Part shown: positions 1,623 to 41,293 of the stretch, piece after piece | Numbering within the stretch: the first letter of the stretch is position 1 | Layout of the letters: each line of letters starts with the position of its first letter | Origin: Labia minor | Taxonomy: Eukaryota; Arthropoda; Insecta; Dermaptera; Spongiphoridae | Length of the DNA stretch: 64,000 bases | Direction of reading: 5' to 3' | NCBI GenBank assembly: GCA_963082975.1 | Contig: OY720349.1 | Span: forward strand, 61,130,501-61,194,500 | Made by a program: the position numbers and the translations under genes | The notes under the pieces: model-generated | What the model was told of the DNA's origin: nothing | Seen by the model: only the letters and a program-made list of their open reading frames with translations | Database searches by the model: none

Positions 1623-1660
1623 GGCAACGGCCATATCATGTTGAATGCACCGGTTCTCGT
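1623..1660 (+). pseudogene. 5S rRNA gene, 5' fragment (+1 to +38), split by retrotransposon
   Basis: First 38 nt of a 5S gene with its normal upstream spacer and TATA-like block, cut after TTCTCGT by the retrotransposon that follows. The last 14 nt (GCACCGGTTCTCGT) are repeated at the element's far end. The internal A and C boxes are not on this side. The rest of the gene lies at 7020-7101. Confidence 0.95.
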
Positions 1661-3199
1661 AGTTCTATTCGAGCATCGGTACTGTTAACATCTCTTTCCA
1701 GAGTGGAGACCCCGAGCCCGAACAATAACCCGCCTACGGATCCCAAGCCCGGCTTACCTGCCAAGCCCTTGGGCCAGCCCTTAGAATTGCCTCCGAGCAA
1801 ACTTAAATCTATCAGTGTACAGACTAAAGGTCTTTCGAACAAGAAAGCTTTTGAGTTATTAATTAACTCAAAAAGAACTTTAACGAAAGCAGACGTGAAA
1901 CGTCTAAGTGATAAAATGTCTACGAGCAAGAAAAATTCTTCGAGTGGGGTTACAAGTAACTCAAAAATGCAGGCTCTCGAAAACGAGAACAAAGAGTTAA
2001 GGAAAAAAATTCAAGAATTGGAAGAATTAATAAAAAAGAACATTTCATCGGCAACGGCAACATTAGTCGATGACGTCGAAATGGAAGAAGACGCGGACAA
2101 TCAGAAGTGGACGGAGGTATCAAGGAAAAGAAAATCAGGAAAAGAATCTCTATTGCCTCAATCAAATAAAAAGATTCTGACCTGTGAATCAAACATAAAC
2201 GAAAATACTAAAATCACTACCCCGCAGGTGGATAAGACCTCAGTAAAAGAGAAATGTCCACCAATATCAATCAACAATGATATTGCGGTCCAAGTGATCC
2301 AAATTATGAAGACCTATTCAAAAAATTTTGAAATAAAAAGAAGACCTGGTTCGAAGATGTCAAATATAATCACCCAATCAATGGATGATTATAAAAAAAC
2401 AATTGCCATACTAAGAGAAAGGAAGTATGAATTTTTTACATTTACTCCTAAATGTGAAAAATATCAGACATTTCTTCTCAAAGGGTTGGCTCTCGAAACA
2501 AGTGAAGAAATTGTGAAAGAAGAATTATGTATTCACAAGAATATAAAATTCACCAAAATAGAGAGATTCGCAACAAAAAAATCCAAGGACGAAAAGAAAA
2601 CTCTTCCCATATTCTTAATCCAAATAAGCCCGGACAGCAAATTTAAAGACCTAAAAGAAATTAAAACTATATTTCATCAAAGGATTCACTGGGAAAACAT
2701 AAAAAAACAACAAATGATGCAATGTTACAATTGCCAACGCATGGGTCACTCATCTCACTCATGCAATATGGAATCAAGATGTGTTAAATGTAACACAAAA
2801 CACGAAAAAGGTCAGTGCCAAATTACAATTGATACAGACAAATCAAAAATTTTCTGTGTCAATTGTAAAGAATACGGCCACCCAGCTTCATACAAGGGTT
2901 GTCCAGAAAAAAGAAAATTAACGGAAAAAATAAAGACACAGAAGAATGAAGAAAAAGACAATAAAATAAAAAGAGTGAATAGAATTACCAAGATGGTTAA
3001 TCCAGGTATGTCATTCGCCGCAGCGGTGAATAATAATAGTGAAAGTGATTCAAGCAAAGCATCAAATAGTGAAAGTGCTACAGTGCAAAGTGCTCCCCTC
3101 GAAAATAATCTTGAAAGCAGACTGCAGAGAATGGAAAATGCAATTCAACAACTTACAGTCAGCATGCAAATAATTGCCAACTTACTACAACCTCAATGA
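1661..3199 (+). CDS. ORF1 gag-like RNA-binding protein of copy 1
   Basis: Nucleic-acid-binding gag that would package element RNA into RNPs. Visible in order: a Pro-rich N-terminus, a Lys/Glu-rich predicted coiled coil after the first internal Met, basic spacers, a PRE_C2HC-like region, then three zinc knuckles of spacing CX2CX4HX4C, CX2CX3HX4C and CX2CX4HX6C, and a short C-terminal heptad-like helix. The frame is open from the first base of the element, but the first in-frame ATG within it is at 1916 (427 codons to the stop). In this copy the 5S-derived ATG at 1638 is out of frame, because the junction lacks the extra base seen in copies 2 and 3. Translation may therefore start at 1916 or at a non-AUG codon. 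The start given is the element boundary, not a proven start. The frame ends in TGA overlapping the ORF2 ATG. Confidence 0.8.
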   Translation, partial: SSIRASVLLTSLSRVETPSPNNNPPTDPKPGLPAKPLGQPLELPPSKLKSISVQTKGLSNKKAFELLINSKRTLTKADVKRLSDKMSTSKKNSSSGVTSNSKMQALENENKELRKKIQELEELIKKNISSATATLVDDVEMEEDADNQKWTEVSRKRKSGKESLLPQSNKKILTCESNINENTKITTPQVDKTSVKEKCPPISINNDIAVQVIQIMKTYSKNFEIKRRPGSKMSNIITQSMDDYKKTIAILRERKYEFFTFTPKCEKYQTFLLKGLALETSEEIVKEELCIHKNIKFTKIERFATKKSKDEKKTLPIFLIQISPDSKFKDLKEIKTIFHQRIHWENIKKQQMMQCYNCQRMGHSSHSCNMESRCVKCNTKHEKGQCQITIDTDKSKIFCVNCKEYGHPASYKGCPEKRKLTEKIKTQKNEEKDNKIKRVNRITKMVNPGMSFAAAVNNNSESDSSKASNSESATVQSAPLENNLESRLQRMENAIQQLTVSMQIIANLLQPQ

Positions 3200-6100
3200 A
3201 TACTGGTGAGTGCTCAACAGATAGAAAAATTCAAAAATCTTTTAAATTAAATTGCTTGTCATTAAACGTTAACTCGTTAGTTTCAATGCAAAAAAGGGCA
3301 AGCTTGCTTGCCCTATTAGAAAAATATAGGCCGGATGTTCTTATGTTAAGCGAGACCAAACTTAATAAAATGCATCAAATGTCATTTGCTGAATACAACT
3401 TCATTAGGACAGATAATCCAAATGAAAACAATGCAGGAGGAACAGCAATATTAATTAAAAAATCATTCAAATATAGGGAAATTCTTAATAGCAAAATATT
3501 AAACAATAAAAAAGTAGAATCAACCATAATAAAAATTAAAATTGATAATAAAAAAAATCTTTTCCTAATATCAATATACTCCCCAAGTAAAAATGATAGT
3601 TTATTTATTGAAGAGCTAGAAAATATTTTCAAAAATCTCAATTTAGATCAACAGGACAATTACTTTTATTTGGCGGGTGACTTGAATGCCAAACACGAAA
3701 GATGGAATAATAGAAAAAATGACTCTAGAGGGAATAAACTTTGCAGATGGGTCGGCGATAACGAAATTCAATTCAAAATAAAGCTACTTTGTTCAGAAAT
3801 TCCTTCCTTCCCAAGAACAGGATCATTTATAGATTTGATATTGATAGATACCAGATTAAAAGTAATTAATAAAAAAAATAATTATCAGGTTCCAGTGATT
3901 GATTTCGATGGAGATCACTTAGGTCTAATTTCTGAAGTAGAGTTTTCAGGCTTGGAAATAGAATATCAAACAAATAAAAACAAATTTAACTTCAAAAAAA
4001 CAAATTGGCAGCATTTCAAAAATTACCTTAACAAAACTTGTACAATTGACCTTTCGGAAAACCAAAATTTAAATAATCAAAAAATAGATGAATCAATAAA
4101 TTTAATTGAACAACACATTCACTCTGCAATTCAAAAGGCAACACCCAAATTCAAAAGCTTCAACTCAATTGACAAATACGTCACTCATAAAATTAAAAAA
4201 CTACAAAAAGAAAAAAGTTTTCTAATATCACAAATTAATAAATTTTATAAAAATAATTTGAACCGTAACTCTGATGAATTTTTAATCCTGAAAGCTTTAC
4301 TACAAGAAATTAGAAAAAAAATAAATAAGGAAATCAGTCAATCAATTAACAATTATTGGAAAAACCAAATTGAAAATATACCAGAAAAAAACTCATCAGA
4401 AACACTTCCAAAAATTAATGGTATTTTCAGAAGGGGACAAAAAGGGAAGGCAATAAATACAAAAATAAAAATTCCAAACAATAAATTAGAAATTATAGAA
4501 AAGGCCGGAATTAAAAGGGAAAATCTAACAAAAGATGCAGAAGGTAACTTCGTAATTTACGACCCAATTGAAAAGCTTAATATAATGGGATTTCACTTTT
4601 CAATGACCCATTTGCAAAATAAAAATTTAGGTACACATGGACTAACTAACATTATACAACATTGGACTGATAAACTAAAAACTGAAATACTGACTGACAA
4701 ACAAAACAATAAAAGAATAAACAAATTTTCAATTCATAACAAAGCTTCAGACCCTATTTTAAAAGATGAACAACTCTCACTGACAAATTTCCAAGAAGTA
4801 AAAAACATTTTTAAAAGACTAAATAACAAAACATCGACTGGAATTGACAAAATTCCAAATTGTGTTCTTAAGCATCTGCCTGATAAAGTAATTGTCTATT
4901 TCACCATCATATTTAACAATGCCCTGAGCAATTTATATTTTCCTGAAAAATGGAAAAAGGCACTATTAATAGCAATCCCAAAAAAAGACAAAGACACATC
5001 CATTTTAACAAATTTAAGGCCAATAAGTTTATTACCTTGCATTGGAAAGATATTTGAAATAATAATAAATAAAAGGTTGGTCTCAACATGTATAAATAAG
5101 AATATCCTACCTGAAACTCAATTCGGTTTTAGATACAAGCATTCAACAATTAATGCTATTACAAAATTAAATTCGGACATCTGTTGGGCTCTCAACGGGG
5201 GTAATGTGGTTGGAGCGTGTCTGATTGATGTTGAAAAGGCATTCGACACAGTCTGGAGAGAAGGTCTAATCTACAAACTATTAAAGAAAGGTTTCGACAA
5301 AAACCTAGTGAAAATGATATGGAGCATGATTGAGAACAGATCATTCGTAATGAGCGATAGAGGTTTGCAGTCCTCAATCAGCTTTCCGGTTGTAAACGGT
5401 TTACAACAGGGTACAATAAACTCGCCAGTCCTATTTAATATATTTATAAGTGATATTCTAACAGCATATGAACTAAATGTTAAGAAAGGTCTGAATGCAC
5501 TGGCATTTGCGGATGACCTGATCATTTATATTTCTGGGAAAAAAACAGATGAAATTCAACAAAAATTAGAATCTTTAGGCAACAAAATTTTTACTTTTTA
5601 TAATAATTGGAAATTAAAGATAAATTTAAATAAATGTGAAACAATATTATTTAGGCCAACTATTAATAATGGAAACAAAAATTTAAAAAAGAATTGGAAA
5701 AATTTTCACATAAGTATAAATGGTCAGGTCATTCCCCATAAAAACACAGTTCGTTATCTAGGCGTACATTTAGATGAAAGACTAATGTTCAAAAATCACA
5801 TAAATATTCAATTAGCCAAGGCCAGAGCAGCATTCATGTCGTTAAAATGGCTATTCTATAGTCCGTATTTAAAGCCAAAAATAAAAATTCAATGCTATAG
5901 TTTATTTGTTAGACCAATTGTAACATACGGTTCAAGTATATGGTTCAACCAAAACGCATCAACAATGGAGAAAATTCGTGTGTTTGAAAGGAAATGCTTA
6001 AGAGCTTGTCTGGGGATGTGGAGGGCTCGAGAAACCAGCTATCAGAAATTTATAAATAATGAAACAATCTACAATCTGGCGAATTTAAATAGAATAGATT

Positions 6101-6459
6101 GCTTCATTATTAAATTAATAAGAAAATATTATAGCAGAATTTTAAATAATGACGAAAATAGTTTGGTTTCGGGTGCGGCACTTCCACACGACCAGTATTA
6201 TAAAGAAACTCTAGAAACGGGATTTGTTCCACCAGAAGCATTTCCTTTCTTAGATGCCCAGGGATATATACAAGACTTTAATAGTATTCCTATTATTTAT
6301 CATGTGTATAGAAATATTAATGACAAAAGAATCAAATATGATCCCTTCCTAGACGGACAGGACCAGTATAGATTTTATAGATTTAGTCGTGCGATCCCGG
6401 ATAGGGATAAAAAAGAAAAGTTAAATAATAAAAACTACTGGTGGTTTGATAATCAATAA
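3196..6459 (+). CDS. ORF2 APE endonuclease-reverse transcriptase of copy 1
   Basis: A 1,087-residue protein that nicks the target and copies element RNA by target-primed reverse transcription. APE endonuclease is at about residues 15-250, with the catalytic Glu in LSETKL (E53), GDLNAKH (D162, N164) and the final DGDH (D240, H241). RT is at about 540-880: the LRPISLL region, QFGFR, motif A LIDVEKAFDTVW (D678), motif B QQGTINSPVLFN and motif C FADD (771-774), then thumb YLGVHLDERL (854-863). The C-terminus carries the FVRPIVTYGSSIW and IYNLANLNRID segments typical of Jockey-type ORF2. I see no RNase H domain or C-terminal zinc knuckle. ATG overlaps the ORF1 stop by ATGA, suggesting stop-restart translation. 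All catalytic residues are present and there is no frameshift. Confidence 0.95.
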   Translation: MNTGECSTDRKIQKSFKLNCLSLNVNSLVSMQKRASLLALLEKYRPDVLMLSETKLNKMHQMSFAEYNFIRTDNPNENNAGGTAILIKKSFKYREILNSKILNNKKVESTIIKIKIDNKKNLFLISIYSPSKNDSLFIEELENIFKNLNLDQQDNYFYLAGDLNAKHERWNNRKNDSRGNKLCRWVGDNEIQFKIKLLCSEIPSFPRTGSFIDLILIDTRLKVINKKNNYQVPVIDFDGDHLGLISEVEFSGLEIEYQTNKNKFNFKKTNWQHFKNYLNKTCTIDLSENQNLNNQKIDESINLIEQHIHSAIQKATPKFKSFNSIDKYVTHKIKKLQKEKSFLISQINKFYKNNLNRNSDEFLILKALLQEIRKKINKEISQSINNYWKNQIENIPEKNSSETLPKINGIFRRGQKGKAINTKIKIPNNKLEIIEKAGIKRENLTKDAEGNFVIYDPIEKLNIMGFHFSMTHLQNKNLGTHGLTNIIQHWTDKLKTEILTDKQNNKRINKFSIHNKASDPILKDEQLSLTNFQEVKNIFKRLNNKTSTGIDKIPNCVLKHLPDKVIVYFTIIFNNALSNLYFPEKWKKALLIAIPKKDKDTSILTNLRPISLLPCIGKIFEIIINKRLVSTCINKNILPETQFGFRYKHSTINAITKLNSDICWALNGGNVVGACLIDVEKAFDTVWREGLIYKLLKKGFDKNLVKMIWSMIENRSFVMSDRGLQSSISFPVVNGLQQGTINSPVLFNIFISDILTAYELNVKKGLNALAFADDLIIYISGKKTDEIQQKLESLGNKIFTFYNNWKLKINLNKCETILFRPTINNGNKNLKKNWKNFHISINGQVIPHKNTVRYLGVHLDERLMFKNHINIQLAKARAAFMSLKWLFYSPYLKPKIKIQCYSLFVRPIVTYGSSIWFNQNASTMEKIRVFERKCLRACLGMWRARETSYQKFINNETIYNLANLNRIDCFIIKLIRKYYSRILNNDENSLVSGAALPHDQYYKETLETGFVPPEAFPFLDAQGYIQDFNSIPIIYHVYRNINDKRIKYDPFLDGQDQYRFYRFSRAIPDRDKKEKLNNKNYWWFDNQ

Positions 6460-6920
6460 GTTTACTAGTTGAAAAAGAGAGGATGAGAAATGTATCCGTT
6501 ATTTGATTTCTTTTATCTTTTCTTTCTTGAGTGAATCTTATTATTCATATTATAATCATTATAAAAATTGTAGCATAAGTTAATTTATTTCTTTTCTTAT
6601 TATATTAGCAATTATTAATAAACATTAAGTTAAGTTTTTCTTTTTTCTTTTTTTATATATCTTAATTTATGTAAAGGAGGGGAAAGGAAAAAAAAAAGAA
6701 TTATAAAAATTCAAGTAGTGATAAGTTAATAAAAAATATTTTTTTTTCAGGTTTTTATAAAGCCAATTTTTCCTGAAAATTTTTTTTAAAAAATAAGATT
6801 ATATAAACTTAATAATTATATATTAAAAAACAATTACTTTCCTAGTGTATAAATAATTTAAGCATAATAACGTATATACATAAAATGTATAATGTTATAA
6901 ATCAAATGTAATTAATATGT

Positions 6921-6944
6921 AAATCCCAATGTGTTTGGGGATTT
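6921..6944 (+). other. Conserved 3'-UTR hairpin of the 5S-targeted element
   Basis: AAATCCC (6921-6927) pairs with GGGATTT (6938-6944), with further A/T pairing inside, giving a stem-loop about 60 bp before the element's end. The same hairpin is kept in copies 2 and 3, although the bases around it vary. Such 3' structures can be recognised by the RT of non-LTR elements; that role is inferred here. Confidence 0.5.
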
Positions 6945-7019
6945 TGTTCATTGTAAATATAACTGTAATTTGGCTCAATAAACACATTTTTCTAAAAAAA
7001 AAAAAGCACCGGTTCTCGT

Positions 7020-7101
7020 CTGATCACCGAAGTTAAGCAACATCGAGCGCGGTTAGTACTTGGATGGGTGACCGCTTGGGAACACCGCGTGCCGTTGCCC
7101 T
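7020..7101 (+). pseudogene. 5S rRNA gene, 3' fragment (+39 to +120), after retrotransposon
   Basis: The remaining 82 nt of the split 5S gene, preceded by the 14-bp TSD (7006-7019). The A box and C box are intact, so Pol III could in principle start upstream in the element's A-rich tail. The normal T-run terminator follows. The downstream spacer carries the ACTTTTAG / AAAATATAC variant. Confidence 0.95.
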
Positions 7102-8055
7102 TAAATTCTATTTTTGTTTTTTGGTTTTCCTTTTCACATTTTGACTTTAAAATTTCATCCTATCTTTTTAATCAAGTCTCTTTATTATATTTCTATTTAA
7201 TTCTAATATTATATTCATACAATTTGCAAATAATGAATAAATAAAATTACTCACATTTTCAAAAAATAATTCATAACATTACTTTTAGAAAACCTCGTTA
7301 TTCATTTTATTAATTTGTAAATTACCTCTTCGACATAATCAACATCTTTATATGAAAATATACTGAATTCTTTTGAGCCTGTTGGTATTTTTCTTTTAAG
7401 AATACAAAAATAAAACTTTCCCTAACATTATAAGAAATAGGAAATACATTATAAATGAAACTATTCGAATATCTTTTTATTGATGTAACCAAACCCTCCC
7501 TCACTCACTCTGTTTTAGACAAAACACATTGAATGAATGAAATAACAAGAAAATTTAACTATTTTATACTTTTATAATTGCAAACAAGAGTGGTTTCTAT
7601 GGAAATATTATTAAGAATTGGAAAAAAAAAAAAAAAAAAAAAAAAAGAAAAATTATATCGCGAAAATAAATAAAAATATATACCCTAATAACTATTAAAA
7701 TTCTTACCCATTGAACTTATCAAATGTCCATGTCATAAATTTTATTCTAAACAATACAGACAGCTCCCGTCTACCATTTGTCAAATTAGTTATTATTTTA
7801 CATCCTACTTTCGAAAAAAATAAACAAAAAGGAAAAAAAAAATTCAAATAGCTATATTGCCTTTATTTTATGATTATTCTTTCTCTACCTCTCTTTGAGA
7901 TGTCATAAATTGAAATTTGTTAAACAATAAAACAACCAAACCACCACCACCAATACGTATATACGTATATATATTTGAAAATTGAACATTAATGTATCAA
8001 TTTGTTCATTAATAATTGATTTTATTTAATAGATGGAGAGTAATTTTAAATCAGT

Positions 8056-19895: not shown

Positions 19896-19933
19896 GGCAA
19901 CGGCCATATCATGTTGAATGCACCGGTTCTCGT
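19896..19933 (+). pseudogene. 5S rRNA gene, 5' fragment (+1 to +38), split by retrotransposon
   Basis: First 38 nt of a 5S gene, cut at the same base as the locus at 1623. It includes the 14-nt TSD (19,920-19,933). The ATG at 5S +16 (19,911) reads in frame into the element's gag. The 3' part is at 25,283-25,364. Confidence 0.95.
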
Positions 19934-21461
19934 GAGTTCTAGTCGAGCATCGGTACGGTTAACATCTCCTTCCAGAGTGGAGACCCCGAGCCCGAACAAT
20001 AACCCGCCTACGGATCCCAAGCCCGGCCTACCTGCCAAGCCCTTGGGCCAGCCCTTAGAATTGCCTCCGAGTAAAGCTAAAACTATCAGTGTGCAGACTA
20101 AAGGTCTTTCGAACAAGAAAGCTTTTGAGTTATTAATTAACTCAAAAAGATCCTTAACGAAAGCTGACGTGAAACGTCTAAGTGTTAGAATGTCGACAGG
20201 CAAGAAAAATTCTTCGAGTGGGGTTACAAGTAACTCCAAAATGCAGGCTCTCGAAAACGAGAACAAAGAGTTAAGAAAAAAAATACAAGAATTGGAAGAT
20301 TTAATCAAAAACCAAATTTCAACAGCAACAGTTGAAATGGAAGAAGTTAACGCCGAGATTAATAATTGGACGGAGGTCACAAGAAAAAGAAAAGCAGGTA
20401 AAGAATCTTTAGTGCCTCAATCCAATAAAAAGCTGCTGACCGGTGAAACAACAATAAATGAAAATCCTAAAAAAATCACTACTCCGCAGGTGGAAAAGAC
20501 CTCAGCAAAAGAGAAATGTCCACCAATATCAATCAACAACGATATCGCGGTCCAAGTGATACAGATTATGAAGACTTTTTCAAAACATTTTGAAATCAAA
20601 CGAAGACCGGGTTCGAAAATGTCTAATATAATCACCCAATCAATGGATGATTATAAAAAAATAATTGCCAAACTAAGAGAAAGGAAGTATGAATTTTTTA
20701 CATTTACTCCAAAATGTGAAAAATATCAGACATTTCTTCTCAAAGGGTTGGCTCTCGAAACGAGTGAAGAAATCGTGAAAGAAGAATTAGATATTCACAA
20801 GAATATAAAATTCACCAAAATAGAGAGATTCGCAACAAAAAAATCCAAGGACGAAAAGAAAACTCTTCCCATGTTCTTAATCCAAATAAGCCCGGACAGC
20901 AAATTTAAAGACTTAAAAGAAATTAAAACCATATTTCATCAAAGGATTCACTGGGAAAACATAAAAAAACAACAAATGATGCAATGTTACAATTGCCAAC
21001 GCATGGGTCACTCATCTCACTCATGCAATATGGAATCAAGATGTGTTAAATGTAACACAAAACATGAAAAAGGTCAGTGCCAAATTACAATTGATACAGA
21101 CAAATCAAAAATTTTCTGTGTCAATTGTAAAGAATACGGCCACCCGGCTTCATACAAGGGTTGTCCAGAAAAAAGAAAATTAATGGATAAAATAAAGAAC
21201 AAGAAGAATGAAGAAAAAGACAATAAAATAAATAGGGTGAACCGAATTACCAAGATGGTTAATCCAGGTATGTCATTCGCGGCAGCGGTGAATAATAATA
21301 GTGCAAGTGATTCAAACAAAACATCAAATAGTGAAAGTGTTACAGTGCAAAGTGCTCCCCTTGAAAATAATGTTGAAAGCAGACTGCAAAGAATGGAAAA
21401 TGCAATTCAACAACTTACAATCAGCATGCAAATAATTGCCAACTTACTACAACCTCAATGA
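19911..21461 (+). CDS. ORF1 gag-like protein of copy 2 (ATG in 5S sequence)
   Basis: A 516-codon frame that begins at an ATG lying in the 5S gene (+16) and reads through the junction into the element. The next in-frame ATG is codon 94 (20,190). Domain order is as in the other copies: Pro-rich N-terminus (about 25-55), coiled coil (about 110-135), PRE_C2HC-like region, three zinc knuckles and a C-terminal helix. It is 4 codons shorter than copy 3 because of an indel after the coiled coil. Differences from copy 3 upstream of codon 94 are substitutions only, with no frame-breaking indel, though several change residues. Whether the 5S ATG is really used is unproven. The TGA overlaps the ORF2 start. 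Confidence 0.8.
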   Translation: MLNAPVLVSSSRASVRLTSPSRVETPSPNNNPPTDPKPGLPAKPLGQPLELPPSKAKTISVQTKGLSNKKAFELLINSKRSLTKADVKRLSVRMSTGKKNSSSGVTSNSKMQALENENKELRKKIQELEDLIKNQISTATVEMEEVNAEINNWTEVTRKRKAGKESLVPQSNKKLLTGETTINENPKKITTPQVEKTSAKEKCPPISINNDIAVQVIQIMKTFSKHFEIKRRPGSKMSNIITQSMDDYKKIIAKLRERKYEFFTFTPKCEKYQTFLLKGLALETSEEIVKEELDIHKNIKFTKIERFATKKSKDEKKTLPMFLIQISPDSKFKDLKEIKTIFHQRIHWENIKKQQMMQCYNCQRMGHSSHSCNMESRCVKCNTKHEKGQCQITIDTDKSKIFCVNCKEYGHPASYKGCPEKRKLMDKIKNKKNEEKDNKINRVNRITKMVNPGMSFAAAVNNNSASDSNKTSNSESVTVQSAPLENNVESRLQRMENAIQQLTISMQIIANLLQPQ

Positions 21462-24400
21462 ATACTGGTGAGTGCTCAACAGATAGGAAAATCCAAAAAT
21501 CTTTTAAATTAAATTGCTTGTCATTAAATGTTAACTCGTTAGTTTCAATGCAAAAAAGAGCAAGCTTGCTTGCACTATTAGAAAAATATAGGCCGGATGT
21601 TCTTATGTTAAGTGAGACCAAACTTAATAAAATGCATCAAATGTCATTTGCTGAATACAACTTCATTAGGACAGATAATCCAAATGAAAACAATGCAGGA
21701 GGAACAGCAATATTAATTAAAAAATCATTCAATTATAGGGAAATTCTTAATAGCAAAATATTAAACAATAAAAAAGTAGAATCAACCATAATAAAAATTA
21801 AAATTGATAATAAAAAAAATCTTTTCCTAATATCAATATACTCCCCAAGTAAAAATGATAGTTTATTTATTGAAGAGCTAGAAAATATTTTCAAAAATCT
21901 CAATTTAGACCAACAGGACAATTACTTTTATTTGGCCGGTGACTTGAATGCCAAACACGTAAGATGGAATAATAGAAAAAATGACTCTAGAGGGAATAAA
22001 CTTTGCAGATGGGTCGGCGATAATGAAATTCAATTCAAAATAAAGCTACTTTGTTCAGAAATTCCTTCCTTCCCAAGAACAGGATCATTTATAGATCTGG
22101 TATTGATAGATACCAGATTAAAAGTAATTAATAAAAAAAATAATTACCAAGTTCCAGTGATTGATTTCGATGGAGATCACTTAGGTCTAATTTCTGAAGT
22201 GGAGCTTCCAGGCTTAGAAATAGAAAATCAAATAAATAAAAACAAATTTAACTTCAAAAAAACAAATTGGCAGCATTTCAAAAATTACCTTAACAAAACT
22301 TGTACAATTGACCTTTCGGAAAACCAAAATTTAAATAATCAAAAAATAGATGAATCAATAAATTTAATTGAACAACACATTCACTCTGCAATTCAAAAGG
22401 CAACACCCAAATTCAAAAGTTTCAACTCAATTGACAAATACGTCACTCATAAAATTAAAAAACTACAAAAAGAAAAAAGTTTTCTAATATCACAAATTAA
22501 TAAATTTTATAAAAATAATTTGAACCGTAACTCTGATGAATTTTTAATCCTGAAGGCTTTACTACGGGAAATTAGAAAAAAAATAAATAACGAAATCAGT
22601 CAATCAATTAACAATTATTGGAAAAACCAAATTGAAAATATACCAGAAAAAAGCTCATCAGAAACACTTCCAAAAATTAATGGTATTTTCAGAAGGGGAC
22701 AAAAAGGGAAGGCAATAAATACAAAAATAAAAATTCCAAACAATAGATTAGAAATTATAGAAAAGGCCGGAATTAAAAGGGAAAATCTAACAAAAGATGC
22801 AGAAGGTAACTTCGTAATTTACGACCCAATTGAAAAGCTTAATATAATGGGATTTCACTTTTCAATGACCCATTTGCAAAATAAAAATTTAGGTACACAT
22901 GGACTAACTAACATTATACAACATTGGACTGATAAACTAAAAACTGAAATACTGACTGACAAACAAAACAATAAAAGAATAAACAAATTTTCAATTCATA
23001 ACAAAGCTACAGACCCTATTTTAAAAGACGAACAACTCTCACTGACAAATTTCCAAGAAGTAAAAAACATTTTTAAAACATTAAATAACAAAACATCGAC
23101 TGGAATTGACAAAATTCCAAATTGTGTTCTTAAGCATCTGCCTGATAAAGTAATTGTCTATTTCACCATCATATTTAACAATGCCCTGAGCAATTTATAT
23201 TTTCCTGAAAAATGGAAAAAGGCACTATTAATAGCAATCCCAAAAAAAGACAAAGACACATCCATTTTAACAAATTTAAGGCCAATAAGTTTATTACCTT
23301 GCATTGGAAAGATATTTGAAATAATAATAAATAAAAGGTTGGTCTCAACATGTATAAATAAGAATATCCTACCTGAAACTCAATTCGGTTTTAGATACAA
23401 GCATTCAACAATTAATGCTATTACAAAATTAAACTCGGACATCTGTTGGGCTCTCAACGGAGGTAATGTGGTTGGAGCGTGTCTGATTGATGTTGAAAAG
23501 GCATTCGACACAGTCTGGAGAGAAGGCCTAATTTACAAACTATTAAAGAAAGGTTTCGACAAAAACTTAGTGAAAATGATATGGAGCATGATTGAAAACA
23601 GATCATTCGTAATGAGCGATAGAGGTTTGCAGTCCTCAATCAGCTTTCCGGTTGAAAACGGTTTACAACAGGGTACGATAAACTCGCCAGTTCTATTTAA
23701 TATATTTATAAGTGATATTCTAACAGCATATGAACTAAATGTTAAGAAAGGTCTGAATGCACTGGCATTTGCGGATGACCTGATCATTTATATTTCTGGG
23801 AAAAAAACAGATGAAATTCAACAAAAATTAGAATCTTTAGGCAACAAAATTTTTACTTTTTATAATAATTGGAAATTAAAGATAAATTTAAATAAATGTG
23901 AAACAATATTATTTAGGCCAATTATTAATAATGGAAACAAAAATTTAAAAAAGAATTGGAAAAATTTTCACATAAGTATAAATGGTCAGGTCATTCCCCA
24001 TAAAAACACAGTTCGTTATCTAGGCGTACATTTAGATGAAAGACTAATGTTCAAAAATCACATAAATATTCAATTAGCCAAGGCCAGAGCAGCATTCATG
24101 TCGTTAAAATGGCTATTCTATAGTCCGTATTTAAAGCCAAAAATAAAAATTCAATGCTATAGTCTATTTGTTAGACCAATTGTAACATACGGTTCAAGTA
24201 TATGGTTCAACCAAAACGCATCAACAATGGAGAAAATTCGTGTGTTTGAAAGGAAATGCTTAAGAGCTTGTTTGGGGATATGGAGGGCTCGAGAAACCAG
24301 CTATCAGAAATTTATAAATAATGAAACAATCTACAATCTGGCGAATTTAAATAGAATAGATTGCTTCATTATTAAATTAATAAGAAAATTTTATAGCAGA

Positions 24401-25268
24401 ATTATAAATAATGACGAAAATAGTTTGGTTTCGGGTGCGGCACTTCCAAACGACCCGTATTATAAAGAAACTCTAGAAACGGGATTTATTCCACCAGAAG
24501 CATTTCCTTTCTTAGATGCCCAGGGATATATACAAGACTCTAATAATATTCCTATAATTTATCATGTATATAGAAATAGTAATGATAAAAGAATCAAATA
24601 CGATCCCTTCCTAGACGGACAGGACCAGTATAGATTTTATAGATTTAGTCGTGCGATCTCGGATAGGGATAAAAAAGAAAAGTTAAATAATAAAAACTAC
24701 TGGTGGTTTGATAATCAATAAGTTTACTAGTTGAAAAAGTGAGGATGAGAAATGTATCCGTTATTTGATTTCTTTTATCTTTTCTTTCTTGAGTGAATCT
24801 TATTATTCATATTATAATCATTATAAAAATTGTAGCATAAGTTAATTTATTTCTTTTCTTATTATATTAGCAATTATTAATAAACATTAAGTTAATTTTT
24901 TTCTTTTTTCTTTTTTTATATATCTTAATTTATGTAAATGAGGGGAAAGGAAAAAAAAAAAAAGAATTATAAAAATTCAAGTAGTGATAAGTTAAATAAA
25001 AAATATATTTTTTTTCAGGTTTTTATAAAGCCAATTTTTCCTGAAAATTTTTTTAAAAAATAAGATTATATAAACTTAATAATTATATATTAAAAACAAT
25101 TACTTTCCTAGTGTACAAATAATTTAAGCATAATAACGTATATACATAAAATGTATAATGTTATAAATCAAATGTAAATAATATGTAAATCCCAATGTGT
25201 TTGGGGATTTGGTTCTTTGTAAATATAACTGTAATTTGGCTCAATAAACACATTTTTCTAAAAAAAAA
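19934..25268 (+). mobile_element. Full-length 5S-targeted Jockey-like non-LTR retrotransposon, copy 2
   Basis: A 5,335-bp element between TSDs at 19,920-19,933 and 25,269-25,282, in the same site and orientation as the other copies. It begins with one extra G before AGTTCTAGTCGAGC and ends in a 9-A tail. Both ORFs are intact, but it is visibly diverged from copies 1 and 3: about two dozen residue changes in ORF2, a short indel in ORF1 and small 3'-UTR indels. It therefore represents an older or sister lineage. Confidence 0.93.
21458..24721 (+). CDS. ORF2 APE endonuclease-reverse transcriptase of copy 2
   Basis: 1,087 residues, the same length as in copies 1 and 3, with all catalytic motifs kept: SETKL, GDLNAKH, DGDH, motif A LIDVEKAFD, motif B QQGTINSP and FADD. 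Changes relative to copy 1 cluster in the linker after the endonuclease (about 250-262) and in the last 110 residues; one lies next to the endonuclease motif (KHE to KHV). None removes a catalytic residue, so the protein looks functional. It starts at the ATGA overlap with ORF1. Confidence 0.95.
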   Translation: MNTGECSTDRKIQKSFKLNCLSLNVNSLVSMQKRASLLALLEKYRPDVLMLSETKLNKMHQMSFAEYNFIRTDNPNENNAGGTAILIKKSFNYREILNSKILNNKKVESTIIKIKIDNKKNLFLISIYSPSKNDSLFIEELENIFKNLNLDQQDNYFYLAGDLNAKHVRWNNRKNDSRGNKLCRWVGDNEIQFKIKLLCSEIPSFPRTGSFIDLVLIDTRLKVINKKNNYQVPVIDFDGDHLGLISEVELPGLEIENQINKNKFNFKKTNWQHFKNYLNKTCTIDLSENQNLNNQKIDESINLIEQHIHSAIQKATPKFKSFNSIDKYVTHKIKKLQKEKSFLISQINKFYKNNLNRNSDEFLILKALLREIRKKINNEISQSINNYWKNQIENIPEKSSSETLPKINGIFRRGQKGKAINTKIKIPNNRLEIIEKAGIKRENLTKDAEGNFVIYDPIEKLNIMGFHFSMTHLQNKNLGTHGLTNIIQHWTDKLKTEILTDKQNNKRINKFSIHNKATDPILKDEQLSLTNFQEVKNIFKTLNNKTSTGIDKIPNCVLKHLPDKVIVYFTIIFNNALSNLYFPEKWKKALLIAIPKKDKDTSILTNLRPISLLPCIGKIFEIIINKRLVSTCINKNILPETQFGFRYKHSTINAITKLNSDICWALNGGNVVGACLIDVEKAFDTVWREGLIYKLLKKGFDKNLVKMIWSMIENRSFVMSDRGLQSSISFPVENGLQQGTINSPVLFNIFISDILTAYELNVKKGLNALAFADDLIIYISGKKTDEIQQKLESLGNKIFTFYNNWKLKINLNKCETILFRPIINNGNKNLKKNWKNFHISINGQVIPHKNTVRYLGVHLDERLMFKNHINIQLAKARAAFMSLKWLFYSPYLKPKIKIQCYSLFVRPIVTYGSSIWFNQNASTMEKIRVFERKCLRACLGIWRARETSYQKFINNETIYNLANLNRIDCFIIKLIRKFYSRIINNDENSLVSGAALPNDPYYKETLETGFIPPEAFPFLDAQGYIQDSNNIPIIYHVYRNSNDKRIKYDPFLDGQDQYRFYRFSRAISDRDKKEKLNNKNYWWFDNQ

Positions 25269-25282
25269 GCACCGGTTCTCGT

Positions 25283-25364
25283 CTGATCACCGAAGTTAAG
25301 CAACATCGAGCGCGGTTAGTACTTGGATGGGTGACCGCTTGGGAACACCGCGTGCCGTTGCCCT
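25283..25364 (+). pseudogene. 5S rRNA gene, 3' fragment (+39 to +120), after retrotransposon
   Basis: The 82-nt rest of the split gene with intact A and C boxes and terminator, following the TSD copy at 25,269-25,282. The downstream spacer is the AAAATATAC / TATAAGAAA variant, the same as after copy 1. Confidence 0.95.
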
Positions 25365-33780: not shown

Positions 33781-33900
33781 GGCAACGGCCATATCATGTT
33801 GAATGCACCGGTTCTCGTCTGATCACCGAAGTTAAGCAACATCGAGCGCGGTTAGTACTTGGATGGGTGACCGCTTGGGAACACCGCGTGCCGTTGCCCT
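33781..33900 (+). rRNA. 5S ribosomal RNA
   Basis: Intact 5S gene; the base four before the start differs (ATCCGT instead of ATCAGT), and the downstream spacer has CTTTTCAGCC and CGACACAATC, private to the right end of the array. Confidence 0.97.
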
Positions 33901-34942: not shown

Positions 34943-35896
34943 TAAATTCTATTTTTGTTTTTTGGTTTTCCTTTTCACATTTTGACTTTAAAATTTCATC
35001 CTATCTTTTTAATCAAGTCTCTTTATTATATTTCTATTTAATTCTAATATTATATTCATACAATTTGCAAATAATGAATAAATAAAATTACTCACATTTT
35101 CAAAAAATAATTCATAACATTACTTTTAGAAAACCTCGTTATTCATTTTATTAATTTGTAAATTACCTCTTCGACATAATCAACATCTTTATATGAAAAT
35201 GTACTGAATTCTTTTCAGCCTGTTGGTATTTTTCTTTTAAGAATACAAAAATAAAACTTTCCCTAACATTATAGGAAATAGGAAATACATTATAAATGAA
35301 ACTATTCGAATATCTTTTTATTGATGTAACCAAACCCTCCCTCACTCACTCTGTTTTAGACAAAACACATTGAATGAATGAAATAACAAGAAAATTTAAC
35401 TATTTTATACTTTTATAATTGCAAACAAGAGTGGTTTCTATGGAAATATTATTAAGAATTGGAAAAAAAAAAAAAAAAAAAAAAAAAGAAAAATTATATC
35501 GCGAAAATAAATAAAAATATATACCCTAATAACTATTAAAATTCTTACCCATTGAACTTATCAAATGTCCATGTCATAAATTTTATTCTAAACAATACAG
35601 ACAGCTCCCGTCTACCATTTGTCAAATTAGTTATTATTTTACATCCTACTTTCGAAAAAAATAAACAAAAAGGAAAAAAAAAATTCAAATAGCTATATTG
35701 CCTTTATTTTATGATTATTCTTTCTCTACCTCTCTTTGAGATGTCATAAATTGAAATTTGTTAAACAATAAAACAACCAAACCACCACCACCAATACGTA
35801 TATACGTATATATATTTGAAAATTGAACATTAATGTATCAATTTGTTCATTAATAATTGATTTTATTTAATAGATGGAGAGTAATTTTAAATCAGT

Positions 35897-35934
35897 GGCA
35901 ACGGCCATATCATGTTGAATGCACCGGTTCTCGT
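35897..35934 (+). pseudogene. 5S rRNA gene, 5' fragment (+1 to +38), split by retrotransposon
   Basis: Third interrupted 5S gene, cut at the same base. It has the TSD at 35,921-35,934 and an ATG at 35,912 in frame with the gag. The 3' part is at 41,294-41,375. Confidence 0.95.
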
Positions 35935-37474
35935 CAGTTCTATTCGAGCATCGGTACTGTTAACATCTCTTTCCAGAGTGGAGACCCCGAGCCCGAACAA
36001 TAACCCGCCTACGGATCCCAAGCCCGGCTTACCTGCCAAGCCCTTGGGCCAGCCCTTAGAATTGCCTCCGAGCAAACTTAAATCTATCAGTGTGCAGACT
36101 AAAGGTCTTTCGAACAAGAAAGCTTTTGAGTTATTAATTAACTCAAAAAGAACTTTAACGAAAGCAGACGTGAAACGTCTAAGTGATAAAATGTCTACGA
36201 GCAAGAAAAATTCTTCGAGTGGGGTTACAAGTAACTCAAAAATGCAGGCTCTCGAAAACGAGAACAAAGAGTTAAGGAAAAAAATTCAAGAATTGGAAGA
36301 ATTAATAAAAAAGAACATTTCATCGGCAACGGCAACATTAGTCGATGACGTCGAAATGGAAGAAGACGCGGACAATCAGAAGTGGACGGAGGTATCAAGG
36401 AAAAGAAAATCAGGAAAAGAATCTCTATTGCCTCAATCAAATAAAAAGATTCTGACCTGTGAATCAAACATAAACGAAAATACTAAAATCACTACCCCGC
36501 AGGTGGATAAGACCTCAGTAAAAGAGAAATGTCCACCAATATCAATCAACAATGATATTGCGGTCCAAGTGATCCAAATTATGAAGACCTATTCAAAAAA
36601 TTTTGAAATAAAAAGAAGACCTGGTTCGAAGATGTCAAATATAATCACCCAATCAATGGATGATTATAAAAAAACAATTGCCATACTAAGAGAAAGGAAG
36701 TATGAATTTTTTACATTTACTCCTAAATGTGAAAAATATCAGACATTTCTTCTCAAAGGGTTGGCTCTCGAAACAAGTGAAGAAATTGTGAAAGAAGAAT
36801 TATGTATTCACAAGAATATAAAATTCACCAAAATAGAGAGATTCGCAACAAAAAAATCCAAGGACGAAAAGAAAACTCTTCCCATATTCTTAATCCAAAT
36901 AAGCCCGGACAGCAAATTTAAAGACCTAAAAGAAATTAAAACTATATTTCATCAAAGGATTCACTGGGAAAACATAAAAAAACAACAAATGATGCAATGT
37001 TACAATTGCCAACGCATGGGTCACTCATCTCACTCATGCAATATGGAATCAAGATGTGTTAAATGTAACACAAAACACGAAAAAGGTCAGTGCCAAATTA
37101 CAATTGATACAGACAAATCAAAAATTTTCTGTGTCAATTGTAAAGAATACGGCCACCCAGCTTCATACAAGGGTTGTCCAGAAAAAAGAAAATTAACGGA
37201 AAAAATAAAGACACAGAAGAATGAAGAAAAAGACAATAAAATAAAAAGAGTGAATAGAATTACCAAGATGGTTAATCCAGGTATGTCATTCGCCGCAGCG
37301 GTGAATAATAATAGTGAAAGTGATTCAAGCAAAGCATCAAATAGTGAAAGTGCTACAGTGCAAAGTGCTCCCCTCGAAAATAATCTTGAAAGCAGACTGC
37401 AGAGAATGGAAAATGCAATTCAACAACTTACAGTCAGCATGCAAATAATTGCCAACTTACTACAACCTCAATGA
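35912..37474 (+). CDS. ORF1 gag-like protein of copy 3 (ATG in 5S sequence)
   Basis: 520 codons from an ATG in the 5S gene. Residues 1-8 are 5S-encoded (MLNAPVLV). A Pro-rich stretch follows at about 25-54, the first internal Met is 94 (36,191), and the coiled coil is at about 111-135. A PRE_C2HC-like region spans about 270-340. The zinc knuckles are C363/C366/H371/C376, C382/C385/H389/C394 and C407/C410/H415/C422, with a C-terminal helix at about 488-518. It binds element RNA and likely forms RNP particles with ORF2. The TGA at 37,472-37,474 overlaps the ORF2 ATG. Use of the 5S ATG rather than codon 94 is inferred from the open frame, not shown. Confidence 0.8.
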   Translation: MLNAPVLVSSIRASVLLTSLSRVETPSPNNNPPTDPKPGLPAKPLGQPLELPPSKLKSISVQTKGLSNKKAFELLINSKRTLTKADVKRLSDKMSTSKKNSSSGVTSNSKMQALENENKELRKKIQELEELIKKNISSATATLVDDVEMEEDADNQKWTEVSRKRKSGKESLLPQSNKKILTCESNINENTKITTPQVDKTSVKEKCPPISINNDIAVQVIQIMKTYSKNFEIKRRPGSKMSNIITQSMDDYKKTIAILRERKYEFFTFTPKCEKYQTFLLKGLALETSEEIVKEELCIHKNIKFTKIERFATKKSKDEKKTLPIFLIQISPDSKFKDLKEIKTIFHQRIHWENIKKQQMMQCYNCQRMGHSSHSCNMESRCVKCNTKHEKGQCQITIDTDKSKIFCVNCKEYGHPASYKGCPEKRKLTEKIKTQKNEEKDNKIKRVNRITKMVNPGMSFAAAVNNNSESDSSKASNSESATVQSAPLENNLESRLQRMENAIQQLTVSMQIIANLLQPQ

Positions 37475-40400
37475 ATACTGGTGAGTGCTCAACAGATAGA
37501 AAAATTCAAAAATCTTTTAAATTAAATTGCTTGTCATTAAACGTTAACTCGTTAGTTTCAATGCAAAAAAGGGCAAGCTTGCTTGCCCTATTAGAAAAAT
37601 ATAGGCCGGATGTTCTTATGTTAAGCGAGACCAAACTTAATAAAATGCATCAAATGTCATTTGCTGAATACAACTTCATTAGGACAGATAATCCAAATGA
37701 AAACAATGCAGGAGGAACAGCAATATTAATTAAAAAATCATTCAAATATAGGGAAATTCTTAATAGCAAAATATTAAACAATAAAAAAGTAGAATCAACC
37801 ATAATAAAAATTAAAATTGATAATAAAAAAAATCTTTTCCTAATATCAATATACTCCCCAAGTAAAAATGATAGTTTATTTATTGAAGAGCTAGAAAATA
37901 TTTTCAAAAATCTCAATTTAGATCAACAGGACAATTACTTTTATTTGGCGGGTGACTTGAATGCCAAACACGAAAGATGGAATAATAGAAAAAATGACTC
38001 TAGAGGGAATAAACTTTGCAGATGGGTCGGCGATAACGAAATTCAATTCAAAATAAAGCTACTTTGTTCAGAAATTCCTTCCTTCCCAAGAACAGGATCA
38101 TTTATAGATTTGATATTGATAGATACCAGATTAAAAGTAATTAATAAAAAAAATAATTATCAGGTTCCAGTGATTGATTTCGATGGAGATCACTTAGGTC
38201 TAATTTCTGAAGTAGAGTTTTCAGGCTTGGAAATAGAATATCAAACAAATAAAAACAAATTTAACTTCAAAAAAACAAATTGGCAGCATTTCAAAAATTA
38301 CCTTAACAAAACTTGTACAATTGACCTTTCGGAAAACCAAAATTTAAATAATCAAAAAATAGATGAATCAATAAATTTAATTGAACAACACATTCACTCT
38401 GCAATTCAAAAGGCAACACCCAAATTCAAAAGCTTCAACTCAATTGACAAATACGTCACTCATAAAATTAAAAAACTACAAAAAGAAAAAAGTTTTCTAA
38501 TATCACAAATTAATAAATTTTATAAAAATAATTTGAACCGTAACTCTGATGAATTTTTAATCCTGAAAGCTTTACTACAAGAAATTAGAAAAAAAATAAA
38601 TAAGGAAATCAGTCAATCAATTAACAATTATTGGAAAAACCAAATTGAAAATATACCAGAAAAAAACTCATCAGAAACACTTCCAAAAATTAATGGTATT
38701 TTCAGAAGGGGACAAAAAGGGAAGGCAATAAATACAAAAATAAAAATTCCAAACAATAAATTAGAAATTATAGAAAAGGCCGGAATTAAAAGGGAAAATC
38801 TAACAAAAGATGCAGAAGGTAACTTCGTAATTTACGACCCAATTGAAAAGCTTAATATAATGGGATTTCACTTTTCAATGACCCATTTGCAAAATAAAAA
38901 TTTAGGTACACATGGACTAACTAACATTATACAACATTGGACTGATAAACTAAAAACTGAAATACTGACTGACAAACAAAACAATAAAAGAATAAACAAA
39001 TTTTCAATTCATAACAAAGCTTCAGACCCTATTTTAAAAGATGAACAACTCTCACTGACAAATTTCCAAGAAGTAAAAAACATTTTTAAAAGACTAAATA
39101 ACAAAACATCGACTGGAATTGACAAAATTCCAAATTGTGTTCTTAAGCATCTGCCTGATAAAGTAATTGTCTATTTCACCATCATATTTAACAATGCCCT
39201 GAGCAATTTATATTTTCCTGAAAAATGGAAAAAGGCACTATTAATAGCAATCCCAAAAAAAGACAAAGACACATCCATTTTAACAAATTTAAGGCCAATA
39301 AGTTTATTACCTTGCATTGGAAAGATATTTGAAATAATAATAAATAAAAGGTTGGTCTCAACATGTATAAATAAGAATATCCTACCTGAAACTCAATTCG
39401 GTTTTAGATACAAGCATTCAACAATTAATGCTATTACAAAATTAAATTCGGACATCTGTTGGGCTCTCAACGGGGGTAATGTGGTTGGAGCGTGTCTGAT
39501 TGATGTTGAAAAGGCATTCGACACAGTCTGGAGAGAAGGTCTAATCTACAAACTATTAAAGAAAGGTTTCGACAAAAACCTAGTGAAAATGATATGGAGC
39601 ATGATTGAGAACAGATCATTCGTAATGAGCGATAGAGGTTTGCAGTCCTCAATCAGCTTTCCGGTTGTAAACGGTTTACAACAGGGTACAATAAACTCGC
39701 CAGTCCTATTTAATATATTTATAAGTGATATTCTAACAGCATATGAACTAAATGTTAAGAAAGGTCTGAATGCACTGGCATTTGCGGATGACCTGATCAT
39801 TTATATTTCTGGGAAAAAAACAGATGAAATTCAACAAAAATTAGAATCTTTAGGCAACAAAATTTTTACTTTTTATAATAATTGGAAATTAAAGATAAAT
39901 TTAAATAAATGTGAAACAATATTATTTAGGCCAACTATTAATAATGGAAACAAAAATTTAAAAAAGAATTGGAAAAATTTTCACATAAGTATAAATGGTC
40001 AGGTCATTCCCCATAAAAACACAGTTCGTTATCTAGGCGTACATTTAGATGAAAGACTAATGTTCAAAAATCACATAAATATTCAATTAGCCAAGGCCAG
40101 AGCAGCATTCATGTCGTTAAAATGGCTATTCTATAGTCCGTATTTAAAGCCAAAAATAAAAATTCAATGCTATAGTTTATTTGTTAGACCAATTGTAACA
40201 TACGGTTCAAGTATATGGTTCAACCAAAACGCATCAACAATGGAGAAAATTCGTGTGTTTGAAAGGAAATGCTTAAGAGCTTGTCTGGGGATGTGGAGGG
40301 CTCGAGAAACCAGCTATCAGAAATTTATAAATAATGAAACAATCTACAATCTGGCGAATTTAAATAGAATAGATTGCTTCATTATTAAATTAATAAGAAA

Positions 40401-41279
40401 ATATTATAGCAGAATTGTAAATAATGACGAAAATAGTTTGGTTTCGGGTGCGGCACTTCCACACGACCTGTATTATAAAGAAACTCTAGAAACGGGATTT
40501 GTTCCACCAGAAGCATTTCCTTTCTTAGATGCCCAGGGATATATACAAGACTTTAATAGTATTCCTATTATTTATCATGTGTATAGAAATATTAATGACA
40601 AAAGAATCAAATATGATCCCTTCCTAGACGGACAGGACCAGTATAGATTTTATAGATTTAGTCGTGCGATCCCGGATAGGGATAAAAAAGAAAAGTTAAA
40701 TAATAAAAACTACTGGTGGTTTGATAATCAATAAGTTTACTAGTTGAAAAAGAGAGGATGAGAAATGTATCCGTTATTTGATTTCTTTTATCTTTTCTTT
40801 CTTGAGTGAATCTTATTATTCATATTATAATCATTATAAAAATTGTAGCATAAGTTAATTTATTTCTTTTCTTATTATATTAGCAATTATTAATAAACAT
40901 TAAGTTAAGTTTTTCTTTTTTCTTTTTTTATATATCTTAATTTATGTAAAGGAGGGGAAAGGAAAAAAAAAAAGAATTATAAAAATTCAAGTAGTGATAA
41001 GTTAATAAAAAATATTTTTTTTTCAGGTTTTTATAAAGCCAATTTTTCCTGAAAATTTTTTTTAAAAAATAAGATTATATAAACTTAATAATTATATATT
41101 AAAAAACAATTACTTTCCTAGTGTATAAATAATTTAAGCATAATAACGTATATACATAAAATGTATAATGTTATAAATCAAATGTAATTAATATGTAAAT
41201 CCCAATGTGTTTGGGGATTTTGTTCATTGTAAATATAACTGTAATTTGGCTCAATAAACACATTTTTCTAAAAAAAAAA
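35935..41279 (+). mobile_element. Full-length 5S-targeted Jockey-like non-LTR retrotransposon, copy 3
   Basis: A 5,345-bp element between TSDs 35,921-35,934 and 41,280-41,293. Almost identical to copy 1; I saw one difference in the gag region and a few in the ORF2 C-terminus, such as ILNN to IVNN and HDQ to HDL. It differs in its 5' junction (one extra C), its tail (10 A) and its flanking spacer type, so it is more likely an independent insertion than a segmental duplication. The extra C could also be the target's own +39 base. Confidence 0.93.
37471..40734 (+). CDS. ORF2 APE endonuclease-reverse transcriptase of copy 3
   Basis: 1,087 residues, nearly identical to copy 1, with intact APE (E53, D162, N164, D240, H241) and RT (D678, motif B, FADD 771-774) residues. 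The specificity for one 5S base presumably lies in the endonuclease and the region between it and the RT; which residues do this cannot be read from the sequence. It overlaps the ORF1 stop by ATGA. Lack of frameshifts and near-identity to copy 1 indicate recent activity. Confidence 0.95.
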   Translation: MNTGECSTDRKIQKSFKLNCLSLNVNSLVSMQKRASLLALLEKYRPDVLMLSETKLNKMHQMSFAEYNFIRTDNPNENNAGGTAILIKKSFKYREILNSKILNNKKVESTIIKIKIDNKKNLFLISIYSPSKNDSLFIEELENIFKNLNLDQQDNYFYLAGDLNAKHERWNNRKNDSRGNKLCRWVGDNEIQFKIKLLCSEIPSFPRTGSFIDLILIDTRLKVINKKNNYQVPVIDFDGDHLGLISEVEFSGLEIEYQTNKNKFNFKKTNWQHFKNYLNKTCTIDLSENQNLNNQKIDESINLIEQHIHSAIQKATPKFKSFNSIDKYVTHKIKKLQKEKSFLISQINKFYKNNLNRNSDEFLILKALLQEIRKKINKEISQSINNYWKNQIENIPEKNSSETLPKINGIFRRGQKGKAINTKIKIPNNKLEIIEKAGIKRENLTKDAEGNFVIYDPIEKLNIMGFHFSMTHLQNKNLGTHGLTNIIQHWTDKLKTEILTDKQNNKRINKFSIHNKASDPILKDEQLSLTNFQEVKNIFKRLNNKTSTGIDKIPNCVLKHLPDKVIVYFTIIFNNALSNLYFPEKWKKALLIAIPKKDKDTSILTNLRPISLLPCIGKIFEIIINKRLVSTCINKNILPETQFGFRYKHSTINAITKLNSDICWALNGGNVVGACLIDVEKAFDTVWREGLIYKLLKKGFDKNLVKMIWSMIENRSFVMSDRGLQSSISFPVVNGLQQGTINSPVLFNIFISDILTAYELNVKKGLNALAFADDLIIYISGKKTDEIQQKLESLGNKIFTFYNNWKLKINLNKCETILFRPTINNGNKNLKKNWKNFHISINGQVIPHKNTVRYLGVHLDERLMFKNHINIQLAKARAAFMSLKWLFYSPYLKPKIKIQCYSLFVRPIVTYGSSIWFNQNASTMEKIRVFERKCLRACLGMWRARETSYQKFINNETIYNLANLNRIDCFIIKLIRKYYSRIVNNDENSLVSGAALPHDLYYKETLETGFVPPEAFPFLDAQGYIQDFNSIPIIYHVYRNINDKRIKYDPFLDGQDQYRFYRFSRAIPDRDKKEKLNNKNYWWFDNQ

Positions 41280-41293
41280 GCACCGGTTCTCGT

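Follow-up and report, generated by a model that had tools for sequence, protein, structure and literature searches.

Jockey-like LINEs of Labia minor in 5S, tRNA and tRNA-like genes: a lineage that probably targets genes transcribed by RNA polymerase III

Jockey-like long interspersed nuclear elements (LINEs) interrupt 5S ribosomal RNA genes of the dermapteran Labia minor in the stretch analysed here, a 64,000-bp part of contig OY720349.1 (C6:61130501-61194500; hereafter the window), and nearly identical copies are found elsewhere in the genome inside a tRNA gene and tRNA-like sequences. We consider it probable that this lineage targets a class of genes, those transcribed by RNA polymerase III (Pol III), including 5S genes, tRNA genes and the heads of short interspersed nuclear elements (SINEs), and that a Pol III factor tethers its integration complex to them. 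The targets, their orientation, the insertion positions, the target site duplications, the poly(A) tails and the common recent lineage of the copies were observed directly in the genome searched (604 Mb, 71 contigs).

The first 41.4 kb of the window are a tandem 5S rDNA array with an uninterrupted unit length of 1042–1078 bp. The 24 matches to 5S rRNA in the window comprise 21 intact genes and three lower-scoring matches, which are the right-hand parts of interrupted genes. The 14-mer GCACCGGTTCTCGT has 27 exact copies in the window, against a mean of 0.00 in 100 shuffles. Three insertions (E1, E2 and E3) each lie between paired copies of this 14-mer, after 5S position +38; since 5S +1 is located 24 bp before the 14-mer, the duplication covers +25 to +38. 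All three elements are on the plus strand, which is the sense of the 5S gene, and their poly(A) tails directly abut the second 14-mer copy. The preliminary description of this DNA had reported three copies in one orientation, inserted after +38 and flanked by a 14-bp duplication of +25 to +38, and the junction analysis bears this out. The junctions are slightly unlike one another: the extra base at the 5′ side is none, G and C, and the number of A residues at the 3′ side is 12, 9 and 10, in E1, E2 and E3, respectively.

E1 and E3 show three differences over 5343 aligned bases, plus four gap columns, and E2 is 97.0% identical to each of them. Both open reading frames (ORFs) are uninterrupted in the three copies and overlap at an ATGA. 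The Pfam domain search, for which the E2 proteins were used, identified RVT_1 (9.5e-39) and Exo_endo_phos (3.8e-12) in ORF2, with no match to RNase H. The ORF1 matches to PRE_C2HC (16.8 bits, cut-off 22.1) and zf-CCHC (19.6 bits, cut-off 20.8) were both below the cut-off; three CCHC knuckles are visible in the ORF1 sequence. The ORF2 domains, the poly(A) tails, the duplications of 13–16 bp and the presence of 5′-truncated copies outside the array (L010 and L033) are those of a non-long-terminal-repeat (non-LTR) retrotransposon with an apurinic/apyrimidinic (APE)-type endonuclease, and judging from the sequence E1–E3 are active-looking two-ORF LINEs. An ORF1 start inside the 5S part, into which the frame is open in E2 and E3, was considered and dropped, as the 5S ATG is out of frame in E1 and the copies outside the array carry no 5S sequence. 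Searches with ORF2 among phages and viral contigs and with ORF1 in PDB found no relative.

Copies were counted across the genome by their 3′ end, allowing up to two mismatches, and the 3′ end was found at 39 places. The preliminary description had proposed a lineage fixed on the 5S gene. As far as the array is concerned this holds to the base: the 23 copies located there (C6:60.91–61.17 Mb) all have their 3′ ends at 5S +25. It does not hold for the lineage, since the other 16 copies lie elsewhere, 15 of them in sequences that read as tRNA or tRNA-like. The whole-assembly search that had been suggested thus yields many copies outside 5S; however, their sites are not unrelated and look like other Pol III genes. 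The first interpretation is too narrow, and the LINE enters Pol III-type genes generally, with a fixed base in 5S.

An exact junction (3′ end, poly(A), GCACCGGTTCTCGT) is present in 20 array copies; in the remaining three (L032, L031 and L036) the 3′ end is a variant or a single base is altered, and the site is unchanged. Exact 5′ junctions number 19, every one in the array, and no 5′ side match was found for array copy L036. The genome contains 113 uninterrupted 5S stretches (up to two mismatches); among the 100 listed, at least 97 are on C6, at least 95 of those being exact. With 23 interrupted against at least 97 uninterrupted array genes, about one array gene in five is interrupted. In the genome ORF2 search, in which 42 of 6125 candidates were scored, 30 matches had an identity of 96% or more; in 24 of these, 19 from the array and five from outside, ORF2 was full length and free of stops. 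Dispersed 5S-like genes or pieces occur on contig C1 (L001–L008), and in four of them CTGATC is replaced by CCGATC; all eight loci lack an element insertion at +38.

Reading of the 3′ flank of every outside copy showed that 15 of the 16 continue, in the same orientation, as a tRNA gene or a tRNA-like (SINE-type) sequence. A strict box B (GWTCRANNC, 12–62 bp downstream of the junction on the element sense strand) is found in 14 of the 16 flanks, and in none of them on the reverse strand. The 5′ side was tried for seven outside copies and matched for six, with duplications of 15 bp (L010 and L020), 13 bp (L021, L025 and L033) and 14 bp (L026), the first base being G in all; the last two matched bases of the L010 duplication may be element sequence, and no 5′ side match was found for L037. 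L033 interrupts a tRNA-Ala(AGC) gene: the joined flanks, with a 13-bp duplication, form one complete gene according to ARAGORN, nicked before nucleotide 24. A 40-nt stretch of this gene has nine exact copies in the genome, six of them within ~100 kb of L033. The other outside copies matched on both sides sit in the heads of SINE-like repeats, an assignment made from their box motifs and their recurrence; one of these repeats has a box B stretch with 1243 exact genome copies.

A sister family in the same genome, with 58% ORF2 identity, shows a similar pattern of insertion. Its 3′ end occurs 57 times. It consists of two subfamilies (L124 versus L125–L127), which are ~71% alike over part of the ORF1 DNA and have a common 3′ end; they were counted together, and all 57 flanks were read. 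By eye, ~46 flanks are tRNA-like and none reads as 5S. The strict box B is present in 35 of the 57, and on the reverse strand in one. Four sister copies were matched on both sides, with duplications of 13, 16, 14 and 13 bp, G first. Over both families, a two-sided match was obtained for 10 of the 11 copies tried outside the array, with duplications of 13–16 bp that all begin with G. The first base after poly(A) trimming is G in 15/16 outside and 41/57 sister flanks, which looks like the endonuclease’s own preference.

The background rate of the strict box B is 1.0% in mononucleotide shuffles of the flanks and 0.4% at G-starting positions in the rest of the window. The counts above include repeated flanks. 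Removal of identical flanks (16 to 15 and 57 to 50) leaves 13/15 outside and 29/50 sister flanks with the strict box B (binomial P = 2e-24 and 2e-44 at a rate of 1.05%). When 130 bp were scanned, the strict matches were confined to the 25–54 bp bins. A control LINE family of the same genome gave 0/12 with the strict rule and 2/12 with a loose one. The nearest Jockey-like family, also taken as a control, is represented by a single copy (L142), the flank of which is not tRNA-like by eye.

Placed by hand in tRNA numbering, the nick lies at ~7–24 in the ten two-sided sites; a scripted placement by box A, less dependable at sites with a degenerate box A, gave 2–24. The box A consensus score as the sole locator of the nick was rejected as too loose, the best scores in the ten sites ranging from 5 to 8 of 8. 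In the tRNA-like targets the nick is around box A; the 5S nick, at +25, precedes the box A of that gene, which we take to lie around +50. Transcripts of tRNA genes begin a few bases before the mature end, so that a distance of ~10–35 bp into the transcript covers both the tRNA-type and the 5S nicks. Given the position of the 5S nick relative to box A, the distance from the transcription start fits both types of target better than the distance from box A. Transcription factor IIIB (TFIIIB) or Pol III would accordingly be a more likely guide than TFIIIC.

The 5S, tRNA and SINE targets have only their promoter class in common, which makes guidance by a bound Pol III factor likely. We propose that the integration complex would be brought to the gene by such a factor, TFIIIB or Pol III itself more than TFIIIC, and that the endonuclease would pick a G locally. 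The ORF2 endonuclease would nick the template strand before this G, within the gene and ~10–35 bp into the transcript. By analogy with other LINEs, the poly(A) RNA would be copied at the nick by target-primed reverse transcription, resulting in gene-sense elements, and a second nick 13–16 bp further would give rise to the duplication.

Several observations weigh against targeting of this gene class by a tethered complex. Insertion into 5S is confined to one base (23/23), more tightly than in the tRNA-like targets with their spread of positions, and tethering alone does not predict this; contact with a Pol III factor is presumed. One outside copy (C4:23.38 Mb) has no visible tRNA-like flank, nor do ~11 of the 57 sister copies. 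Under the loose box B rule the counts rise to 15/16 outside and 45/57 sister flanks, but the background then reaches 24% for shuffles and 30% for the window. A search of the 73 flank loci with Rfam, at E values up to 0.5, yielded no tRNA. These flanks are half genes, and the half of the tRNA-Ala gene was missed too, so half tRNAs are not recognised; as a result, box motifs and reading are the only basis for assigning the SINE heads. Of nine joined empty sites, with both families pooled, one was recognised by ARAGORN.

Target choice might be explained without any host factor if the endonuclease itself reads a DNA sequence or shape common to 5S +25 and the D-arm of tRNA-like targets. The G at the start of all two-sided duplications and the one base used in 23 of 23 5S insertions would agree with this; nevertheless, we regard it as unlikely, since the joined sites by eye have nothing beyond that G in common and their match to box A varies from 5 to 8 of 8. 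In addition, nick positions differ within the same SINE, which argues against recognition of one sequence: the cuts of L021 and L025 in one SINE are 11 bp from each other, those of L026 and L127 (members of the two sister families) in another are separated by 8 bp, and nine flanks of a third SINE type give seven junction-to-box B distances, the poly(A) border being uncertain in three of these flanks. An element specific to 5S with occasional off-target insertions would account for the 23 of 39 copies found at one base of 5S. This seems very improbable, as 15 of the 16 others read as Pol III-type, 14 by the strict rule and far above background, and the sister family has the same Pol III-type preference with 0/57 flanks reading as 5S. 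Least credible of all is that insertion was random and that copies persisted only where they had hit harmless repeats. SINEs are indeed abundant, a single box B stretch being present in 1243 exact copies, but the tRNA-like insertions have one orientation and lie near the repeat head, with box B 25–54 bp downstream, and the control LINE family gave 0/12. Targeting of the Pol III-transcribed class thus remains the reading we prefer.

The array insertions also have a history of their own. Comparison of ORF2 and the 3′ untranslated region (3′UTR) splits the array copies into several subfamilies, with the outside copies interspersed among three groups of array copies. Over these regions, the difference from the nearest array copy is 0.0% for L010, L020 and L021, 0.05% for L026, 0.13% for L033, 0.76% for L025 and 2.59% for L037. 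The near-zero values indicate recent insertion of the same elements into both 5S and tRNA-type targets. Possibly, a few founder insertions were multiplied by unequal exchange of 5S units, and the single base reflects few events; we hold this to be the less probable history, although it is compatible with targeting of Pol III genes. Tandem arrays homogenise, many array copies differ by 0–3 bases, and seven tail types are common to two to four copies each. On the other hand, ten distinct tails are found among the 22 readable ones, though slippage can also alter poly(A) length, and the subfamilies, with the outside copies nested among three groups, also speak against few founders. Probably some array copies were multiplied by exchange of 5S units, while several independent insertions at the +25 base seem needed to explain the subfamilies and the nesting.

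An ORF1 with PRE_C2HC and CCHC knuckles and an ORF2 without RNase H are characteristic of the Jockey clade. In an IQ-TREE phylogeny of the reverse transcriptase (RT) domain (16 sequences, 237 columns; near-duplicate rows L138, L140 and L141 left out), the two families inserted at Pol III-type genes group with LINE families L129, L135 and L136 of the same genome at 99.4/100 (SH-aLRT/UFBoot); the latter are presumably Jockey- or R1-like. The RT of the element is apart from those of R2 and human L1, the sole proxy for L1/Tx1 in this tree. The provisional Jockey-like label fits the domain content and the position in this tree.

If this reading is true, animal LINEs acquired Pol III targeting independently, and one element has two target modes, strict in 5S and relaxed in tRNA-type genes. 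SINE insertions might then record the germ-line positions of Pol III factors. The 23 interrupted array genes beside at least 97 uninterrupted ones also bear on the upkeep of 5S arrays.

Table 1. Elements, reading frames and interrupted 5S genes in the window (positions in the window).
Feature	Position	Strand	Basis or remark
Left part of interrupted 5S gene (+1 to +38), ending with duplication copy 1	1623..1660	+	14-mer scan, 5S match
Element E1, 5345 bp, poly(A) 12	1661..7005	+	Junction analysis
E1 ORF1 frame, gag-like, three CCHC knuckles	1661..3199	+	Open frame back to 1583 (5S and spacer)
E1 ORF2, 1087 aa, APE-type endonuclease and reverse transcriptase	3196..6459	+	4-base overlap with ORF1 (ATGA)
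Right part of interrupted 5S gene (+25 to end), beginning with duplication copy 2	7006..7100	+	14-mer scan, 5S match
Left part of interrupted 5S gene (+1 to +38)	19896..19933	+	14-mer scan, junction analysis
Element E2, 5335 bp, poly(A) 9	19934..25268	+	Junction analysis
E2 ORF1 frame	19934..21461	+	Open frame back to 19911 (5S part); Pfam
E2 ORF2, 1087 aa	21458..24721	+	Open frame, Pfam, genome ORF2 search
Right part of interrupted 5S gene	25269..25363	+	5S match
Left part of interrupted 5S gene (+1 to +38)	35897..35934	+	14-mer scan, junction analysis
Element E3, 5345 bp, poly(A) 10	35935..41279	+	Junction analysis
E3 ORF1 frame	35935..37474	+	Open frame back to 35912 (5S part)
E3 ORF2, 1087 aa	37471..40734	+	Open frame, genome ORF2 search
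Right part of interrupted 5S gene; last 5S of the array in the window	41280..41374	+	5S match

Just beyond the 5S array, at ~42250–42725, the window contains a repeat with inverted ends (aggcagaggttcttaaac ... gtttaagaacctctgcctt), which resembles a hAT-type non-autonomous element. A decayed relative at 42874–43655 was considered because its frames weakly resemble ORF2 by eye, and rejected, as tblastn at 1e-3 gave no match. An inverted repeat of 192 nt, 98% complementary with a loop of 65 nt, is located at 44771–45219, and a large nested inverted repeat at 47237–49459, the longest arms of which are 244 nt, 97% alike and ~1–2 kb apart. Exon-like frames on the minus strand at 59954–63308 resemble those of a CTNNBL1 gene.

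R1 and R2 are non-LTR elements with single-site specificity, each fixed to one base of 28S rDNA. The present element resembles them in having one fixed base in an rRNA gene array and differs in having many unrelated target sequences. Mutsu and Dewa, two non-LTR elements of animals that are also located at Pol III-type loci, belong to the Tx1/L1 clade. Mutsu is likewise a two-ORF element, ~5.5 kb in length and located in 5S genes. Excerpts of the published descriptions, on which the comparisons that follow are based, name zebrafish Mutsu in 5S genes and Dewa in a tRNA-Leu spacer (PMC3706591, in which R1 and R2 are named too; Mutsu also in PMC11202950). One target is described there for each of them, whereas the present family enters 5S genes, a tRNA gene and many tRNA-like repeats; with 16 of 39 copies outside the array, it is not confined to 5S genes as Mutsu is. 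Dada DNA transposons also insert inside tRNA and small nuclear RNA genes, some of them at box A; however, they have a DDE transposase, duplications of 6–7 bp and an own target gene for each family (PMC3706591).

Jockey-like LINEs in 5S arrays have already been reported from the beetle Tribolium freemani, in which, according to the available part of the report, elements of ~5 kb regularly interrupt the arrays, and 32 of 113 5S copies, found exclusively alongside these elements, are without the first 30 bp (PMC11202950). Such short copies would be expected from insertion near +25 to +31. As far as that part of the report goes, an association and pseudogenes are described, with no target site, duplication or tRNA-type targets given, and the elements can be compared by description only (PMC11202950). 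An extended proposal seems to us evenly balanced between right and wrong: the Pol III preinitiation or initiation complex would be a general landing pad for insertion, with the cut ~10–35 bp into the transcript, giving both the precision in 5S and the spread in tRNA-type genes; tRNA-derived SINEs would draw off insertions throughout the genome as decoys; and the LINEs in the 5S arrays of T. freemani would be of the same lineage.

The Pol III-targeting non-LTR elements listed in the excerpt of PMC5911963, namely TRE5, TRE3, NLTR-A and NLTR-B, are all dictyostelid, insert outside the gene and are assigned to the L1 type, and targeting of tRNA genes by TREs is called unique to dictyostelids (PMC5006619). 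The literature searched, whose coverage leaves most subscription journals outside, contained no LINE of animals with the whole class of Pol III genes as its target; the part available of another paper (PMC10886601) has no bearing on LINE targets. TRE5 is found 40–54 bp upstream in the opposite orientation, NLTR-A 2–6 bp upstream and TRE3 downstream; TRE5 also enters 5S, its ORF1 binds TFIIIB subunits, and its targeting needs box B (PMC5911963, PMC5006619). The present element is like the dictyostelid TREs in being an APE non-LTR lineage that inserts at Pol III genes of differing sequence, the SINE heads being assigned from box motifs. Unlike them, it lies inside the gene body (tRNA-Ala, 5S and SINE heads) in the same orientation, and its RT does not group with that of human L1. 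Direct sequence recognition inside genes has been set apart from factor-mediated targeting beside genes (PMC3706591, excerpt), and the present lineage seems to mix these modes.

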